42,451 nucleotides of DNA, taken from the NCBI GenBank assembly GCA_028716905.1, contig JAQUOX010000003.1, forward strand, positions 1 to 42,451, given 5' to 3'. Numbering within the stretch: position 1 is the first letter of the stretch; each line of letters opens with the position of its first letter. Position numbers and translations under genes: made by a program. Under the pieces are notes generated by a model, which ran no database searches, was not told the origin of the DNA, and saw only the letters and a list, made by a program, of their open reading frames with translations. Origin of the DNA: Minisyncoccota bacterium. GTDB taxonomy: Bacteria > Patescibacteriota > Minisyncoccia > Minisyncoccales > Minisyncoccaceae. Positions 28,718 through 36,369 of the stretch are shown here, one piece after another.

Positions 28718-29110
28718 TTAAGGATTTTTCTGGAAAAAGTAAAGGGGCCATTCCATTTGTCCTTTGGTTATGAAAGTTACGAATTCATAAACGAGAATCC
28801 AGGCGGAATAAATCAGCAATACGCCGATGACGCCGTAAGTCAATATCTTTTTTCCCTGTTCCACTTTCCCGGGATCGCCGCTGGCCGTCATGATGGTAAT
28901 CCCGCCCCAGGCGAAGAAGAGAACGGCCAAAGGAGGAACCAAGCTGAAAAGGATGAAATTGACGACGTTGTTGATTAAGACAAAAATATCGTTAAAAGTG
29001 CAGGGATTCTGTCCTTCTCCCCCGCAGGGAACAAGCCCCTGCCCCAAAACCGGCGTGGCGAAAAACAAAAAAAGAACGAAGAAAAGCAAATATTGTTTGG
29101 CTTTTGACAT
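28718..29110 (-). CDS. VirB2/TrbC-like pilin (minimal form)
   Basis: Signal peptide, FILFSLVPPLAVLFFAWGGITIMTASGDPGKVEQGKKILTYGVIGVLLIYSAWILV; same topology as the N-termini of the 16358-22465 paralogs. Confidence 0.75.
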   Translation of the reverse strand: MSKAKQYLLFFVLFLFFATPVLGQGLVPCGGEGQNPCTFNDIFVLINNVVNFILFSLVPPLAVLFFAWGGITIMTASGDPGKVEQGKKILTYGVIGVLLIYSAWILVYEFVTFITKGQMEWPLYFFQKNP

Positions 29111-29152
29111 AATCTTTTTTGAGTATAGCGGTTTTAAGCAAAAAAATCAAGG

Positions 29153-29224
29153 TGCCCCCGGCAAGACTCGAACTCGCACCACTGGTTCCGAAGACCAGTA
29201 CTCTATCCATTGAGCTACGGGGGC
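29153..29224 (-). tRNA. tRNA-Arg(TCG)
   Basis: GCCCCCG...CGGGGGC acceptor, CTGGT-CTTCGGA-ACCAG anticodon arm, TTCGAGT T-loop; no encoded CCA. Confidence 0.9.
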
Positions 29225-29226
29225 GT

Positions 29227-29904
29227 CTAATCTTTTTTGAAAAGTTTTTTTAAGGGCTTTATTCTGAAGGGGGGAACAGTATCCTGGTCAAAGATGAGCC
29301 GGTTTTCCATTAATTCGTTTCTGTTGTTTGACTCCAAAACCTCATTAATGGGACTCAGTCTTTTGACGAAAATGGGGATGAGGGAAAGGAGAATGAGATA
29401 GCCGATGGGTTCAAACGTCAAACCGCCCTTAAAGGTGATAAAAATGCCGGTAATCAGAGAAAGAATAGTGCCGACCGAAGCGGTCCAGATAATGGCGAAG
29501 ATAATAGTGGGGATTAATATGACAAGCAGGGTAATGGGAGAAAACACCAGCATGGCTCCCATTAAAGCGCCTAATCCCCTGCCTCCTTTGAACTTAAGGA
29601 AGAGCGACCAGTTGTGGCCGACGACAGACATGACGCCGCAGAGAATCTGGACGGAAACAGGCAGACCGTATTCTTTGGCCAGAAAGACCGCCAGGAAACC
29701 TTTACCAATATCCAGGGCGGCTGTCAAGATACCTTGCCACAAGCCCACGTTTTTGGCCACATTTGAACCCGAGCTTTTCCTCCACCCCATTTCCAGGATG
29801 TTTTTATGGGAGGTCAGCTTGGTGACGATATAGGCAAAGGGAATGGAACCCAAGACGTAGGCCAGAGCCATAAAAGCGATAAAAACAAGATATTGGTCAA
29901 TCAT
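29227..29904 (-). CDS. PlsY-like acylglycerol-3-phosphate synthesis protein, divergent paralog
   Basis: YVLGSIPFAYIVTKL, MGWRKSSGSNVAKNVGLWQG, GHNWSLFLKFKGGRGLGALMG. Confidence 0.8.
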   Translation of the reverse strand: MIDQYLVFIAFMALAYVLGSIPFAYIVTKLTSHKNILEMGWRKSSGSNVAKNVGLWQGILTAALDIGKGFLAVFLAKEYGLPVSVQILCGVMSVVGHNWSLFLKFKGGRGLGALMGAMLVFSPITLLVILIPTIIFAIIWTASVGTILSLITGIFITFKGGLTFEPIGYLILLSLIPIFVKRLSPINEVLESNNRNELMENRLIFDQDTVPPFRIKPLKKLFKKD

Positions 29905-30568
29905 TTAAGTATGTTTTATTTCTTATTTTCTTGATTTGTTCTTCCAGGCGGTCTTTGTGGGCTATCAAGATTAGGGGCGTGGCCGCCAGGGCGGGATAGA
30001 ACAATAATATATTATATGCGTAAAGCCAGAAAAGAGCAAACACTTCTCCGGCCAATCTCCCCGTGATTTGGTCGGAAACGGCGTATTTCAGGAATTTTTT
30101 ATTTACTTTTCTCCCCATCAGTATTTCAAACAAGCTCATAAAGCAGACGACCAGAACGAGCCAGCCGAGGAAGGCTTTCCAGTCAAGATAAAGCAATATG
30201 CCCAGGAAACTGGCCGCTCCCCGGCCTCCTTTGAATTTGAGAAAAACAGAATAATTATGACCCAGAACCGCGAAGAAAGCAGCCAAAGAAACGGCCAGGA
30301 CGCTGTTTCCGGCAGTCAGGGCTTGGGCCAGATACACGGAAAGAATTGCTTTGCCGGCATCCAAAAGAAAAACAAGAAGAAAAGACAAGATTCCCGCTAA
30401 TCCTCCTTTTTCCTTGCCGGCGATTCTTAAGGTATTCAGGGCGCCGATATTCTTTGAGCCCAGTTCCCGCGGGTCTTTTTTAAAGAGAATCTTGTTGACG
30501 ATAAGGCCGAAGGGAATGGAGCCCAGGACGTAGGAAATCAGAGCGATAAGAATATATTTTTCCAACAT
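29897..30568 (-). CDS. PlsY-like glycerol-3-phosphate acyltransferase, divergent paralog
   Basis: YVLGSIPFGLIVNKI, LGSKNIGALNTLRIAG, GHNYSVFLKFKGGRGAASFLG. Confidence 0.8.
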   Translation of the reverse strand: MLEKYILIALISYVLGSIPFGLIVNKILFKKDPRELGSKNIGALNTLRIAGKEKGGLAGILSFLLVFLLDAGKAILSVYLAQALTAGNSVLAVSLAAFFAVLGHNYSVFLKFKGGRGAASFLGILLYLDWKAFLGWLVLVVCFMSLFEILMGRKVNKKFLKYAVSDQITGRLAGEVFALFWLYAYNILLFYPALAATPLILIAHKDRLEEQIKKIRNKTYLND

Positions 30569-30580
30569 ATGTTTTTAAAA

Positions 30581-31459
30581 TTAATCTTGTAATAAGCAAA
30601 CAAGAACGGTGCCCGGACCGACGTGGGCGCCGATGACAAAACTGGTCATATTGACGAACTCTATTTTCATTCCCGGGAACCTGTCTTCTAGCATTTTTTC
30701 CAGTCGCAGCGCTTCATTAAGATTATCGGCATGGCTTATGGCCGCGCGGTATTTTCCGGGCAGTCTTTTAATCAGGTTTTCTGTTTCTTTAAGCAGGGCG
30801 CTGGCCGTGTCTTTGGCCTGCATTTTTAAAGTAACCGGCTTGACCTCGCCGTCCTTGATTCCCAGAACCGGTCTCATGCCCAGGCCCTGCATTTTCTCCA
30901 AAACGCCGGCCACGGTGCCGCTGATTCTTCCTCCGGCTTCCAGCCATCGGGGATTTTCAAGCATGCCGAAAAGATGGACTTTGGAAACAAGGTCTTCCAA
31001 AACCTTAAAGGCGTTTTCCGTACTGTTTCCTTGTTCAATTAATTCCGCGGCTCTGATGGCCAAAAGCGCTTCGCCGATGTCAACATTCAGGGTGTCCAGG
31101 ACAAAGATTTTCTTTTGGGCCTCTTCGTTGAACATTTTCTTCGCCTGCATGGCGGAATTGTAGGTGCCGGATATTTTTGAGCTGACGGTGATGCAGATAA
31201 TTTTCTGATTTTGGGCCAAAAGCTCGTCATAGGCCTTTTTATAAACTCCGATTGCCGGCTGGGACGTCTTGGGGTTGGTTTTCAGTCCCTGCCTCTGGGC
31301 GTTTCGCATTTTTTCGTAGATGTTTTTTCCGGAAATGGCATTTTCTTCGCTCCAGTTAACTATGAAAGGAGCCACTTTCATTTCGTGTTTTTGGATTACT
31401 TCCTGGGGCAGAGCCGCGCTTTCCCCGATGATTATTGTTGTGTTTTTCATTTGTTGCAA
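30581..31459 (-). CDS. DegV family protein (FakB-like fatty-acid-binding subunit)
   Basis: KTSQPAIG, ITVSSKISGTYNSAMQA, IGAHVGPGTVLV. Confidence 0.85.
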   Translation of the reverse strand: MQQMKNTTIIIGESAALPQEVIQKHEMKVAPFIVNWSEENAISGKNIYEKMRNAQRQGLKTNPKTSQPAIGVYKKAYDELLAQNQKIICITVSSKISGTYNSAMQAKKMFNEEAQKKIFVLDTLNVDIGEALLAIRAAELIEQGNSTENAFKVLEDLVSKVHLFGMLENPRWLEAGGRISGTVAGVLEKMQGLGMRPVLGIKDGEVKPVTLKMQAKDTASALLKETENLIKRLPGKYRAAISHADNLNEALRLEKMLEDRFPGMKIEFVNMTSFVIGAHVGPGTVLVCLLQD

Positions 31460-31460
31460 A

Positions 31461-32336
31461 TTATAGATTATTATCGACGTGATAACCGAGAATCAGGGTG
31501 CCGGGGCCAAGATGTCCGCCCAGAGGAATGCAGGTCAGATTTAAAAAAGCTATGTTCACGTTTATATTTGAAAGCAGTTCTTTCAGTTTGCGGGCTTGGC
31601 CTTCGTTGTCGGCGTGAGTGACGCTGGCCGTTATTTTTTTCCCCGACCCTCTGATTTTTCTGGTGTTTTTTTCAAATTCTTGGAATAGGGCGCTGGCCAA
31701 GTCCTCAATGTTTCTTTTTATGCCGACAAGGGCAAGCTTGCCTTCTTTGAATCCGAACAGCGGTTTTAGGCCCATTCTTTCCGCGCCTTTTTGAACAAAG
31801 CGGGGTATCCGTCCGCTGGCTTCAAGCCATTTGCCGTCCTGATAAACACCCAGCAGTTTGAAGTTTTTTAATTCAGCGTTTAATCTGCCGACTATCTCCT
31901 GCGCATTCAGCCCTTGTTTTATGTGCTTTATGGCTTCCAGAGCGACAAGGCCTTCGCCGGCACTGCCGTTAAACGTGTCAATAACATGAATCCGGCCCCT
32001 TAGCTCCGCGCTTAGGAATTTCTGAGCCTGGATGGCTGAATTGTACGTTCCGGAAATCTTGGAAGAGATGGTAAAGCACAATACCTCCTTAAAGTGTTTT
32101 AATTTTTCTTCAAAAACTTTGGCGAAATCGTTTATTGAGGGTTGGGAGGTTTTGACAAAACCGATTACCCCCTGCTTGTCCGATTGCTCCATTTTTTGAT
32201 AAATATTTCCGGAAAATTGCGCCAGTTGCTGCAAGTCAATCTTGAACCTGACGAGCGAAATGTCGTTTTCTTTGATTATTTCTTCGGGCAAGTCAACTGC
32301 TTCGTCAGCGACAATGCCGATTTGTTTTTCTTCCAT
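31461..32336 (-). CDS. DegV family protein (FakB-like fatty-acid-binding subunit)
   Basis: KTSQPSIND, FTISSKISGTYNSAIQA, LGGHLGPGTLILG. Confidence 0.85.
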   Translation of the reverse strand: MEEKQIGIVADEAVDLPEEIIKENDISLVRFKIDLQQLAQFSGNIYQKMEQSDKQGVIGFVKTSQPSINDFAKVFEEKLKHFKEVLCFTISSKISGTYNSAIQAQKFLSAELRGRIHVIDTFNGSAGEGLVALEAIKHIKQGLNAQEIVGRLNAELKNFKLLGVYQDGKWLEASGRIPRFVQKGAERMGLKPLFGFKEGKLALVGIKRNIEDLASALFQEFEKNTRKIRGSGKKITASVTHADNEGQARKLKELLSNINVNIAFLNLTCIPLGGHLGPGTLILGYHVDNNL

Positions 32337-32340
32337 TTTT

Positions 32341-34128
32341 TTATTTCACTATCCAGCCCGCAATCAAGCTTTCTGGGCAAGCGTTGATGCTGGTCACCGG
32401 ATCGGTGATGGTTACAAAAGAGATATCCGCCCTTTTGAATTTTTTAAGGCTTTTTTTGAGCTGTTCGGCCTGCTCCGGGTTGTCGCCGTGAGCGATAACA
32501 GCTCTGATTCTTTTTCCTTTTTTAACTTCTTTGCTGGTGTGGCGGTCTATTTTTTTGAAAAGAATATCGGCGAAATCTTTGGTCCGCACTTTTCCGGCGG
32601 GCGTCATTCTCCCGTCCTTCATCTGGGTTAAAAGAAACTCTTTTTCTTCTTTTCTTTTGAACCAGCGGTCGCCGAAAGAATCTTTTTTCCACCACTGGGA
32701 GTTTTCCAAAACGGCGTAAACGTTGACCTTGGGCACGATGTTTTCCAGGCTTGATTTTATCTCCCGGACGCCCCGGTGCTCTTTTATCAGCTCAATCGCT
32801 TCCAGGATTAACAGGGATTGTCCGGCGCTGATGTTTTTGGAATCAATTACAAAAACTCTTTCCAGTTCTTCCCGGGAGAGCAGGTTTTTTGCCTTAAGGG
32901 CGGAGCGATAATTGTCCGAAAGTTTTGAGCTGGAAACAATACATAAAACGTGCTCAAAGTTTCTTAATTGGTTTTTGTAGGCCTCAAAGAAAAATTCGGG
33001 AGCGATGGATTCGACTTTCGGTTTTTGGGTCAGTCCCTGCTTCTTGGCTTCTTTGATTTTTTCGCAAATCGTGTTGCCGGCCAGGCCTTCCCCTCCGGGC
33101 CAGCTGATTTTAAAGGGAACGACTTCAATATTATAATGATTGATTATCTTTGAAGTCAGGCCGGCTCTTTCGTCAATAACCAGGCCGATGGAAACGCTTT
33201 CAATGGATTTTTCCCCGGCCACCTCTCTGGCCATGTCCTGAATTTTCAGGTTTTCAATGTCGCCCAACTCTTTCACCGCATCTCTTACTTCATACGGGTT
33301 GTCGGTGTGAATGTGTATTTTGGTCCTCTCCCCTATCTGAATAATATCCAGACAGTCGCCCAGATACTTGAGTCTGTCTTTGATGCTTTTCTCCGGCTCT
33401 TCCACGTTTTTAATCAAGGCCACCACTTCATAACGGTTGGAGATTATTTGAATAAATCTTTTGGACGCTGCTTCTTCCTTTTCCAAAGCAAATGCTTTGG
33501 GCGAAGAAAGGTCTCCTTGTTCTTTTAAGATATCCAGATAGGTTTCCAAAATCATCAAAAAGCCGAGGCCGCCCGCATCGACTACCCCGGCTTTTTTCAG
33601 CAATTCCATTTTGTTGGGAGTTTCTTTTAAGGCCTCATCGGCTTTTTCCAGGGCTTTGTAGAAGATTTTTACAATGTCTTTTTCGCTCTTTGATTCTTCT
33701 TCAAAGGTCAGGGCAAAGGCCTCAATAACGTCCAAAATGGTTCCTTCTCTGGGGTTCTGGATGGAATCTTTCGCCCTTTCCGTGCCTTTTCTGAAAGCCA
33801 GAGCCATTTTCTCCGCGTCAACGGATTTTTCTTTACCCAAGGCAGGGAAAAACCCGGCCAAAAAACCGGTATAAATAATGCCGGCATTGCCCTGGGCGCC
33901 GGTCAAAGCGCCCTCCAGAACCGCATCAGACAGCTCTTCAATGGAAGAGAAATCTTTTTCTTCTATCTGCTCTTTGATGCCCTTGAGCGTGGCGCTTAAA
34001 TTATTGCCCGTGTCCTGGTCGGGTACGGGAAAAACATTAATCTTGTTTATCTGTTCCTTGTCTCTCTCTATCCTTTCGCAGGAAAAGAGTATCATTTTTT
34101 TCAGTTCGTTTTGGGTTACTTCTTGCAT
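32341..34128 (-). CDS. Fatty acid kinase FakA-like (DhaL/DAK2) protein fused to a C-terminal degenerate DegV domain
   Basis: INVFPVPDQDTGNNLSATLKG, GALTGAQGNAGIIYTG, VDAGGLGFL; FakA middle/C region (KIHIHTDNPYEVRDAVKELGDIENLKIQDM); then DegV fold from IGLVIDERAGLTSKI to the C-terminus. Confidence 0.85.
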   Translation of the reverse strand: MQEVTQNELKKMILFSCERIERDKEQINKINVFPVPDQDTGNNLSATLKGIKEQIEEKDFSSIEELSDAVLEGALTGAQGNAGIIYTGFLAGFFPALGKEKSVDAEKMALAFRKGTERAKDSIQNPREGTILDVIEAFALTFEEESKSEKDIVKIFYKALEKADEALKETPNKMELLKKAGVVDAGGLGFLMILETYLDILKEQGDLSSPKAFALEKEEAASKRFIQIISNRYEVVALIKNVEEPEKSIKDRLKYLGDCLDIIQIGERTKIHIHTDNPYEVRDAVKELGDIENLKIQDMAREVAGEKSIESVSIGLVIDERAGLTSKIINHYNIEVVPFKISWPGGEGLAGNTICEKIKEAKKQGLTQKPKVESIAPEFFFEAYKNQLRNFEHVLCIVSSSKLSDNYRSALKAKNLLSREELERVFVIDSKNISAGQSLLILEAIELIKEHRGVREIKSSLENIVPKVNVYAVLENSQWWKKDSFGDRWFKRKEEKEFLLTQMKDGRMTPAGKVRTKDFADILFKKIDRHTSKEVKKGKRIRAVIAHGDNPEQAEQLKKSLKKFKRADISFVTITDPVTSINACPESLIAGWIVK

Positions 34129-34168: not shown

Positions 34169-34831
34169 TTATTTTATCTTTTTCTCCAGGCCGTCAAGGA
34201 TTTTTTTGGCAAAATCCTTTCCTCCCAGGCCGAAAGCCAGGCCGAAGACTAGGACGATGAAAGCCACAAAGCCGATGAATATGGTCAAAATCAAATCAGG
34301 CACTATTTTTAACTGGTAAAGAATGGCCAGGCCGGCCAAAATCCAGGCCACTGAAGAAATGATGTCGCCCAAGATGCTTGAGTAGGCTATTTTTTCGTTT
34401 TCCATGCTGGCCAGCAGTATTTTTTTGGAAAAATCGGCCAAAAATACGGTAAAAATGAAAATGATTATGGCAATGAAGATGTTGGGGAAATAATCAATGA
34501 TTTTTTGGATAAAAGCATTGAATTGCTCCAGGCCCAGAATGTCAAAAGAAATGGTCAGGAAAAGAAGAATAAAGAATACGTTGACGAGTTCGCTGAAAAA
34601 GCCGGAAATGTTGATTTGAGTGTTATAGCGAGTAAAAAATTCTTCCCAGCCCAGGGATTTCAGCATTTGGTTCAAGCGGAGTTTTTTTAAAAGTTCGGCC
34701 GCGCCTTCTTTAATTTTGTTGGCGACAAGCACCCCGACCAGGAAAACTAAAAAAGCCCAAATCAAGTTTGGCAGGTTAAGAATCGCGTTTTCCGTAAAAA
34801 TACTTAATATGTCCTGCATAATTTTATGCAT
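34169..34831 (-). CDS. Mechanosensitive-channel-like conserved TM helix protein
   Basis: Multiple TM segments; LPNLIWAFLVFLVGVLVANKIKEGAAELLKKL...FIVLVFGLAFGLGGKDFAKKILDGL typical of MscS-type TM-helix proteins. Confidence 0.65.
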   Translation of the reverse strand: MHKIMQDILSIFTENAILNLPNLIWAFLVFLVGVLVANKIKEGAAELLKKLRLNQMLKSLGWEEFFTRYNTQINISGFFSELVNVFFILLFLTISFDILGLEQFNAFIQKIIDYFPNIFIAIIIFIFTVFLADFSKKILLASMENEKIAYSSILGDIISSVAWILAGLAILYQLKIVPDLILTIFIGFVAFIVLVFGLAFGLGGKDFAKKILDGLEKKIK

Positions 34832-34854: not shown

Positions 34855-35415
34855 CTACCATTTGGCATTGTGCAAGCCCAAATTATACCCAATTCTGTTA
34901 AAAACAAGATGAATGAAAAATGTCAAGGCAAGAAGCCAGAGCCAAAACTTAAGGTCCAGGTGAAGCAGGGGCTGAAGCACCACAAAACTGCCTATTACAT
35001 AGTTTGTCTGGTCAAAAGGAACGAATTTGGCTCCTGGCTTCAGTTTTAGGCGTCTTTTAATAAAAGCAAAGGCCAAATCACCGAAAATAATGCCAATTGA
35101 TAGTAAAAATCCCAATAAAAAGCCATTTATTTGGTTATATGCATAAAAACCGATGGTTTCGTAATGGTTAAGACCAAGAAAGCTATGTATCCAGATGAAT
35201 GCAGGCATTAATAAGGTACAGATAATGATTTCAGAAACAATGCCCCGCCATGTTTTATGGTCGCCCAGGACAGGGATATCGTTTAGTTTCATTCCCCGGT
35301 CAACAGGTTTGGCCAGTCCTTTAAATATGTTTATTTTATACGCCAAGGGCGGTGAAGCATTGGCAAGATATGCTGGTCCGAAGAAATATATGCAGGATAA
35401 TAAATAATAAAGCAT
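34855..35415 (-). CDS. CDP-archaeol synthase (CarS)-like CDP-lipid synthase
   Basis: FFGPAYLANASPPLAYKI, PVDRGMKLNDIPVLGDHKTWRGI, GDLAFAFIKRRLKLKPGAKFVPFDQTNYVIGS. Confidence 0.78.
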   Translation of the reverse strand: MLYYLLSCIYFFGPAYLANASPPLAYKINIFKGLAKPVDRGMKLNDIPVLGDHKTWRGIVSEIIICTLLMPAFIWIHSFLGLNHYETIGFYAYNQINGFLLGFLLSIGIIFGDLAFAFIKRRLKLKPGAKFVPFDQTNYVIGSFVVLQPLLHLDLKFWLWLLALTFFIHLVFNRIGYNLGLHNAKW

Positions 35416-35419
35416 AAAT

Positions 35420-36019
35420 CTATTTTATTATTCTCGGCTCAATGCCCTGGCGCAGTCTTTTAATGTTTTCCCGGTGCGCCCACCATATTAATAATATATA
35501 TATGAAAGCAAGGACAAGATAGGCAACAGACCCTGTTTTGAACCAGAACAATAGGGGCAGAAACAAGACAACAATCAAATTAGTCAGGCTCATTATTTTT
35601 AAAACAAACAAAGTAAGGGCCCAGGAAGCCAAAAATATTAAGGAATATTTAAATCCCAAGATCATGAAAAGCGTTGCCGCAACAGTGGCCACGCCTTTTC
35701 CTCCCTTGAACTTGAGCCAAATCGGGAAAATATGGCCAAGCACGGGAGAGATTGAGACCAGAGCCATTTGCCAGTCCTGGGCCAGGTATCGGCTGGCTAT
35801 ATATATAGGTATAATGGCCTTAAGGATATCAAGGATTCCGACCAGAACCCCGTATTTAAGGCCAAGGGTTCTGCCAACGTTTGTTCCGCCAATATTACCA
35901 CTCCCCTTTTTTCTGATGTCTATTTTTTTAATTTTGGCAATCAAATAGCCGAAAGGTATGGAACCTGATAAATATCCTGCAATAACGAAGAAGATTAATA
36001 AAAGTGTTTGATTTTGCAT
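35420..36019 (-). CDS. plsY: Glycerol-3-phosphate acyltransferase PlsY
   Basis: GYLSGSIPFGYLIAKIKKIDIRKKGSGNIGGTNVGRTLG, GHIFPIWLKFKGGKGVATVAA: canonical PlsY motifs. Confidence 0.92.
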   Translation of the reverse strand: MQNQTLLLIFFVIAGYLSGSIPFGYLIAKIKKIDIRKKGSGNIGGTNVGRTLGLKYGVLVGILDILKAIIPIYIASRYLAQDWQMALVSISPVLGHIFPIWLKFKGGKGVATVAATLFMILGFKYSLIFLASWALTLFVLKIMSLTNLIVVLFLPLLFWFKTGSVAYLVLAFIYILLIWWAHRENIKRLRQGIEPRIIK

Positions 36020-36043
36020 ATGTGTATAATTATTTTAATCCTG

Positions 36044-36114
36044 TGGGCTTGATGAGAGTCGAACTCATATTGCTACTGTGTGAAAGTAGTATTCTGCCGC
36101 TGAAATACAAGCCC
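36044..36114 (-). tRNA. tRNA-Val(CAC)
   Basis: GGGCTTG...CAAGCCCA acceptor, CTACT-TTCACAC-AGTAG, ATGAG-TTCGACT-CTCAT; no encoded CCA. Confidence 0.85.
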
Positions 36115-36118
36115 TATG

Positions 36119-36134
36119 TGTTTCACGTGAAACT
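36119..36134. promoter_or_regulatory. parS: parS-like ParB binding site
   Basis: TGTTTCACGTGAAACT, 15/16 match to the palindrome TGTTTCACGTGAAACA. Confidence 0.75.
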
Positions 36135-36138
36135 TTTG

Positions 36139-36209
36139 TCGGGATGCTGGGAATTGAACCCAGATGACAGACTCCCGAAGCCTGCATAATGCCGTTATAT
36201 CACATCCCG
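36139..36209 (-). tRNA. tRNA-Pro(CGG)
   Basis: CGGGATG...CATCCCGA acceptor (C1-G72), CAGGC-TTCGGGA-GTCTG, CTGGG-TTCAATT-CCCAG. Confidence 0.85.
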
Positions 36210-36219
36210 AAATTGTTTT

Positions 36220-36294
36220 GGCCGGATTCGTGTCCGGATTCTGTCCGCATTGGCCGGATTCTGTCCGCATTCGTGATTCCGGCCAATCCGGACA
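36220..36294. repeat. Cluster of short direct and inverted repeats between tRNA genes
   Basis: CCGGATTCTGTCCGCATT twice (36234-36251, 36254-36271); GGCCGGATTC twice; TGTCCGGATT (36231-36240) inverted as AATCCGGACA (36285-36294). Confidence 0.75.
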
Positions 36295-36298
36295 TTTG

Positions 36299-36369
36299 TG
36301 GACCTGACGAGAATCGAACTCATATCTCTACTATGCGAAAGTAGTGTTCTGCCATTAAACTACAGGCCC
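36299..36369 (-). tRNA. tRNA-Ala(CGC)
   Basis: GGGCCTG...CAGGTCCA acceptor with G3-U70, CTACT-TTCGCAT-AGTAG, ATGAG-TTCGATT-CTCGT. Confidence 0.87.

Follow-up and report, generated by a model that had tools for sequence, protein, structure and literature searches.

A conserved FakA-, DegV- and PlsY-encoding operon in a patescibacterium is a probable PlsX- and ACP-independent route to membrane phospholipid

How Patescibacteria obtain their membrane lipids is the question addressed by the operon described here. It lies in a stretch of 42,451 nucleotides from a Minisyncoccota bacterium (the window: positions 1 to 42,451 of contig JAQUOX010000003.1, assembly GCA_028716905.1), and encodes a FakA-like kinase, two FakB-like DegV proteins, three PlsY paralogues and a CarS-like enzyme. 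Judged from its sequence, the operon probably provides an acyl-phosphate route to membrane phospholipid that is independent of both PlsX and ACP. It would be a variant of the known FakA/FakB-PlsY pathway.

An eight-gene operon conserved within its family

The first-pass annotation had described five closely packed minus-strand genes, one pair overlapping by 8 bp, which would encode a FakA-like kinase, two DegV proteins and two PlsY proteins. All five open reading frames are indeed present, and profile searches gave Pfam matches for each that bear out these identities. The gaps are 4 bp (FakA-DegV1), 1 bp (DegV1-DegV2) and 12 bp (DegV2-PlsY2), and PlsY2 and PlsY3 share the 8-bp overlap. The unit is larger than those five genes, however, as tightly packed genes for PlsY1, a CarS-like protein and an Msc-like protein lie upstream. 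In the order of the operon, all on the minus strand, the genes are:

35420..36019, minus strand: PlsY1, first gene of the operon, predicted canonical glycerol-3-phosphate acyltransferase, 199 aa (PF02660, 2.3e-49; TIGR00023; 5XJ5)
34855..35415, minus strand: CarS-like CDP-lipid synthase, predicted CTP:phosphatidate cytidylyltransferase, 186 aa (Pfam PF01864, 2.4e-27)
34169..34831, minus strand: Msc-like small membrane protein, 220 aa (Pfam PF05552, 3e-12)
32341..34128, minus strand: putative FakA-like fatty acid kinase, DAK2, FakA_M and DegV fold, 595 aa (Pfam; AlphaFold2)
31461..32336, minus strand: DegV1, FakB-like, predicted fatty-acid-binding protein, 291 aa (Pfam DegV, 4e-41; PDB matches)
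30581..31459, minus strand: DegV2, FakB-like, predicted fatty-acid-binding protein, 292 aa from TTG (Pfam DegV, 3e-53; structure matches)
29897..30568, minus strand: PlsY2, divergent PlsY paralogue, 223 aa (Pfam, 1.6e-33; 5XJ5, 5e-12)
29227..29904, minus strand: PlsY3, divergent PlsY paralogue, 225 aa (Pfam, 2.6e-30)

Members of the same GTDB family show an identical order from PlsY1 to PlsY3 wherever their contigs reach far enough, and this order therefore is not due to chance. The Msc-like gene adjoins those of CarS and FakA in most relatives. A scan for promoters and terminators gave signals at chance level.

FakA accompanies PlsY in genomes in which PlsX was not found

Profile searches (eight positive controls) did not find PlsX in the window, in the genome to which it belongs or in any of 60 relatives, a sample of the order consisting of draft MAGs. 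FakA and PlsY occur together in 32 of these genomes and are both missing from 27; one has PlsY without FakA, and none has FakA without PlsY (Fisher, p = 3e-16 over genomes and 2e-9 over families). Four other genomes encode PlsY, DAK2, FakA_M and DegV as single polypeptides of 763–867 aa, and the fatty-acid-binding motifs are intact in three of the four. In distant families of the phylum (G089, G115 and G423), FakA adjoins both a canonical and a divergent PlsY. Because of this co-occurrence, the fusions and the absence of PlsX from all 60 relatives, FakA/FakB probably supplies PlsY with its acyl-phosphate. Purified FakA/B of B. subtilis feeds PlsY without PlsX (PMC13400652).

Fatty acid synthesis genes elsewhere in the genome

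The first-pass annotation had noted correctly that the window contains no fatty acid synthesis gene and no PlsX. A complete FASII pathway was not found either, the genome-wide search having returned no KAS, ACP, FabD or FabH. Specifically, E. coli plsX, fabH, fabD, acpP, fabF, acpS, fadD and cdsA had no match in this genome. Among the 60 relatives a single genome gave a strong KAS match, and ACP gave one weak match among 38. FabG, a FabZ-FabK fusion and PlsC were found in the window's genome, and GpsA is present too. Contig C6 encodes these FabG, FabZ-FabK and PlsC proteins together with a second FabK-like NMO, a biotin carboxylase, a biotin carrier, a carboxyltransferase and BPL, and contig C26 encodes a thiolase. 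Between them, the two contigs hold genes for the thiolase, FabG, the dehydratase, the enoyl reductase and the carboxylase that synthesis of fatty acids independent of ACP would require. Because of these genes, fatty acids may also be made without ACP in this organism, and the earlier statement that the lineage is generally thought to lack fatty acid synthesis is unsafe here: the genome has a FAS-like cluster without ACP and KAS.

The fatty acids for the operon may be scavenged or may come from this cluster. Pure scavenging, the reading of the first-pass annotation, in which every fatty acid would be taken from a host or neighbours and none made, fits the lack of KAS, ACP, FabD and FabH. It also fits the gene content of the family: 14 of its 21 genomes, several of them 94-97% complete, lack both the FabZ-FabK cluster and PlsC and retain FakA, as well as PlsY1 to PlsY3 where contigs allow. 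We nevertheless consider it unlikely as a full account, given the FAS-like genes on C6, with PlsC, and the thiolase on C26, and given that FakA directly adjoins the FAS cluster in members of other families (L159 and L161). That adjacency, together with the presence of both FakA and the FAS cluster in 15 of the 60 genomes, none of which has PlsX, favours the alternative that FakA serves mainly fatty acids of the cell's own making: the ACP-less cluster would yield acyl-CoA, this would be hydrolysed, and FakAB would re-activate the product and so replace PlsX. This reading is about equally doubtful, as 17 genomes have FakA without the cluster and six have the cluster without FakA.

The FakA-like protein and its DegV partners

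DegV1 carries TSQP, SGR and HxGPG motifs, and DegV2 a set of TSQP-type, GGR-type and HxGPG motifs. DegV1 matched DegV and FakB chains of the PDB down to 6e-23, and DegV2 matched FakB1 and DegV structures at 1e-20 to 1e-28; both score under the NCBIfam FakB1 cut-off. DegV2 is called from a TTG start, and an in-frame ATG lies three codons downstream.

The 595-aa FakA-like protein contains Dak2 (4e-34), FakA-like_M (1e-14) and DegV (9e-30) domains in Pfam, and scores under the NCBIfam cut-offs for YloV (264 versus 396 bits) and FakA (159 versus 975 bits). It has the PDxDTG and HxH (Mg-binding) motifs, and His272 and His274 are kept. At the position of Cys240 of S. aureus FakA, the invariant catalytic residue whose C240A replacement causes a >200-fold loss, it has Glu234. 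This Glu is found in 40 of 41 FakAs from Patescibacteria, versus Cys in 35 of 35 from other phyla. The replacement of a catalytic residue could mark a kinase of some other acyl or alcohol substrate, or a regulatory protein, in an operon that only moves lipids, but this is improbable, as PDxDTG and HxH are invariant across the aligned set, the Glu is itself under strict conservation, the pattern of a retooled site, the DegV partners retain their lipid-binding motifs, and fusion to and strict co-occurrence with PlsY fit acyl-phosphate production.

Modelled with AlphaFold2 (pLDDT 91), the C-domain has a TM-score of ~0.8 to FakB1 and of 0.50-0.59 to the S. aureus FakA C-domain (6W6B), and we therefore rejected an ordinary FakA_C. 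The FakA-DegV fusion of the first-pass annotation is thus real in fold, but the lipid-binding motifs are gone from the fused domain, as they are throughout its GTDB family, in contrast to the fused DegV domains of relatives with intact motifs. Because of this loss, it is more likely that the domain serves for docking than that it works as a FakB. FakA_C of S. aureus is itself FakB-like and binds FakB (PMC9136124). A FakA line with a degenerating fused FakB-like domain that keeps stand-alone FakBs may plausibly mirror how the Firmicute FakA_C arose.

Three PlsY paralogues and a CarS-like protein

PlsY1 scored 174 bits, above the TIGR00023 cut-off of 137.2, and PlsY2 and PlsY3 scored ~100 bits each, below it. 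We compared them with A. aeolicus PlsY at the glycerol-3-phosphate clamp (Ser35, Arg45, Lys104 and Asn180), His177 and the acyl-phosphate residues His92 and Thr41. PlsY1 (5XJ5, E 5e-35) keeps all clamp and acyl-phosphate residues. PlsY2 has the changes T41L, K104R and N180R, with the acyl-phosphate site kept, and PlsY3 has S35W, T41S, R45K and K104R and has lost His177 and Asn180. Both retain His92 and the GGRG loop, and their paralogue-specific motifs are conserved across genera. By sequence, the acceptor pockets of PlsY2 and PlsY3 are altered. The PlsY3 type is the form fused to FakA-DegV in relatives. The idea that PlsY3 substitutes for PlsC is weakened, because G026 and G057, in which PlsY3 is the sole PlsY found, also carry the FAS cluster, G057 with PlsC as well.

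The CarS-like protein passes the Pfam CarS-like cut-off, and its 114.6 bits are below the cut-off of 148 for CDP-archaeol synthase (NCBIfam NF003114).

Proposed route

In the route that we propose, free fatty acids would leave the membrane bound to DegV1 and DegV2. FakA, whose degenerate C-terminal DegV domain probably docks these two proteins, would phosphorylate the bound fatty acids to acyl-phosphate. PlsY1 would transfer the acyl group to glycerol-3-phosphate, yielding lysophosphatidic acid. A second acylation, by the PlsC encoded on another contig or by PlsY2 or PlsY3, would give phosphatidic acid, which the CarS-like enzyme is predicted to convert to CDP-lipid.

PlsC, searched for by Pfam PF01553 alone, is missing from several close relatives, including most FakA-only relatives of the family. 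In these and in the unrelated G089, G115 and G423, both acyl chains might come from acyl-phosphate, with PlsY1 acylating glycerol-3-phosphate and a divergent PlsY of rebuilt acceptor pocket (PlsY2 type, possibly PlsY3) lysophosphatidic acid; we put this forward tentatively, as less likely than not. If true, phospholipids would be made without PlsX, PlsC, ACP and acyl-CoA, with kinase, binder and acyltransferase in places forming one chain. As a competing outcome, PlsC-less cells may stop at lysolipids, which are enriched in CPR fractions (Probst et al. 2020, PMC7242380).

Comparison with known systems

We found no prior description of FakA in CPR in the open-licence literature. Nealsonbacteria have PlsY and PlsC and no PlsX, and the source of their acyl-phosphate has been asked (Probst et al. 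2020, PMC7242380). The conserved FakA/FakB/PlsY operon and its fusions name a concrete enzyme for this question, testable in vitro with few genes. ACP-independent synthesis was suggested for Nealsonbacteria in the same study, as a proposal only.

The system resembles FakA/FakB of Firmicutes (S. aureus, S. suis and B. subtilis) in its DAK2 and FakA_M domains, its motif-bearing DegV partners and the acyl-phosphate expected for PlsY. It differs in having no PlsX or ACP downstream, in the Glu for the catalytic Cys, in a C-domain with a full DegV fold instead of the reduced FakA_C, and in being a single operon with three PlsY genes and a CarS-like gene, with PlsY-FakA-FakB fusions in relatives. PlsY1 is canonical at every tested residue, as in the PlsX/PlsY/PlsC pathway, and PlsC is present on another contig; however, PlsX is absent from the order sample, two PlsYs are divergent and PlsC (PF01553) is absent from most FakA-only relatives. 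The CarS-like domain is shared with CDP-archaeol synthase (CarS)/CdsA, but the gene has a fatty-acyl and not an isoprenoid context and its product scores under the archaeal equivalog cut-off. Finally, the thiolase, FabG- and FabZ-like proteins and biotin-dependent carboxylase, without KAS or ACP, recall the ACP-independent fatty acid synthesis proposed for archaea (Lombard et al. 2012, reviewed in PMC3533463), whereas the genome analyzed here belongs to a bacterium, and its cluster also contains PlsC and a FabZ-FabK fusion.

Organization and distribution of the operon

ORF positions and Pfam domains confirmed the five minus-strand genes that the first-pass annotation had placed at 29227-34128, encoding FakA, the stand-alone proteins DegV1 and DegV2, PlsY2 and PlsY3. 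The operon starts further upstream, with three more genes before FakA, and the positions of the neighboring tRNA genes show that it is bordered by tRNAs on both sides:

36043-36369, three tRNA genes, just upstream of PlsY1
35420-36019, minus strand, PlsY1
34855-35415, minus strand, CarS-like CDP-lipid synthase
34169-34831, minus strand, small Msc-like membrane protein
29151-29224, tRNA-Arg, beginning 2 bp past PlsY3
28718-29110, TrbC/VirB2-like T4SS pilin gene (Pfam T4SS_pilin), between two tRNA genes

The window is the complete contig C3 of a 508 kb genome (93% complete), whose close named relatives are Patescibacteria/Paceibacterota MAGs; Nealsonbacteria belong to the same order. Throughout the GTDB family, contigs long enough to show it share the eight-gene order from PlsY1 to PlsY3, and a few members have one more DegV. 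The pilin gene adjoins the operon in many relatives too. In one relative (G017, L191:2675-4981), a 768-aa ORF joins the Msc-like protein to FakA; this may be a genuine fusion or an artifact of assembly.

In the incomplete MAGs on which all our presence and absence counts are based, FakA was detected in 32 of 60 relatives, PlsY in 33 and both in 32 (Fisher p = 3e-16; 2e-9 with one count per family). An even sample of the phylum contained FakA in only 5 of 380 genomes, and the trait is therefore confined to a few lineages.

A putative route to acyl-phosphate without PlsX

The absence of PlsX extends beyond the window to all 60 relatives (0/60), in a search validated by eight positive controls. 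Phmmer searches with E. coli plsX, fabH, fabD, acpP, fabF, acpS, fadD and cdsA gave no counterpart, and those with gpsA, fabG and fabZ did. The best-supported interpretation is that PlsX is replaced by FakA/FakB: these putative kinase components would provide the acyl-phosphate for PlsY, whose product would be converted into CDP-lipid by the CarS-like enzyme.

PlsY3-type sequences are fused to FakA–DegV in single PlsY-DAK2-FakA_M-DegV proteins of 763-867 aa (L216:9209-11812, L217:9203-11785, L221:622-3204 and L247:9191-11482), and the motifs of the fused fatty-acid-binding domain are intact in L216, L217 and L221. Such single-chain fusions are strong evidence that PlsY, FakA and DegV work together.

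The putative kinase and its fused DegV domain

The expected lipid-binding and kinase residues were found in part: the DAK2 and FakA_M motifs of the window's FakA and the motifs of DegV1 and DegV2 are intact, but the fused DegV motifs and the catalytic Cys are lost. Glu234 aligns with catalytic Cys240 of S. aureus, while His272 and His274 are kept; the alignment with Bacteroidota relatives is ungapped (RYCTEALI versus RYEVVALI). Glu occupies this position in 40 of 41 Patescibacteria FakAs, and Cys in 35 of 35 from other phyla. Since C240A lowers the activity of S. aureus FakA more than 200-fold (PMC9136124), a Glu kept so consistently points to a remodeled site or to a different reaction.

The model of the C-terminal domain (pLDDT 91) resembles FakB1 (TM about 0.8) more than S. 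aureus FakA_C (0.50-0.59). Its TSQP, GGR and HxGPG motifs are gone in the window's family, which also has the motif-bearing DegV1 and DegV2, and are largely present in other families of the order and in DAK2-FakA_M-DegV proteins from Bacteroidota and Gammaproteobacteria, which have the same domain layout. In the DegV tree the degenerate domains are nested within intact fused ones (support 100/98), so motif loss came after fusion. The Bacteroidota and Gammaproteobacteria proteins (L222, L224-L259), with Cys present and FakB motifs mostly intact, are apparently self-contained fatty acid kinases.

Possible fatty acid sources and routes of second acylation

Fatty-acid-synthesis genes, absent from the window, are present elsewhere in the genome (loci L139 and L148):

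C6:19935-27703, FAS-like cluster without ACP or KAS: carboxyltransferase, biotin ligase, biotin carrier, biotin carboxylase, PlsC, NMO/FabK-like protein, FabZ–FabK fusion, FabG
C26:186-1313, thiolase, on a separate contig

Neither KAS nor ACP had a match in this genome; KAS gave one strong and one weak match across 60 relatives, and ACP one weak match among 38 genomes. The sole strong KAS match adjoins a FakA-like ORF in a Nealsonbacteria genome (G049, contig C9; L055, L162). The fatty acids may be taken from outside the cell, perhaps from a host, or made by its own FAS-like cluster.

PlsC tracks the FabZ–FabK cluster (20 of 21 cluster-positive genomes; p = 5e-11). Fifteen genomes have both cluster and FakA, and 22 neither. 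The six cluster-only genomes have no PlsY and one or two PlsC each; four (G025, G046, G051, G054) carry two tandem PlsC-like genes, one of which may encode a G3P acyltransferase. In the 17 FakA-only genomes one Pfam model found no PlsC, save a weak match in G049.

For these PlsC-less relatives, the better candidate for adding the second chain is the PlsY2 type. By positions from the A. aeolicus PlsY structure (PMC5700162), PlsY1 has every G3P-clamp residue; PlsY2 keeps Ser35, Arg45, His92 and His177, with T41L, K104R and N180R; PlsY3 keeps His92, with S35W, T41S, R45K and K104R, and lacks His177 and Asn180. Each pattern is conserved within its paralogue. Three distant families, one including the 100% complete G423, have FakA–DegV beside a canonical and a PlsY2-like PlsY, with no PlsC found by the same Pfam model. 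PlsY3 is a weaker candidate, since it also occurs in some genomes that carry PlsC or the FAS cluster. Membranes of lysolipids are a third possibility.

The C6 cluster and C26 thiolase resemble the ACP-independent fatty acid synthesis proposed for archaea (PMC3533463), and such a pathway has been suggested for Nealsonbacteria (PMC7242380). The latter study, by Probst et al., asked where acyl-phosphate comes from in Nealsonbacteria with PlsY and PlsC but no PlsX; the FakA/FakB–PlsY route is a candidate answer.
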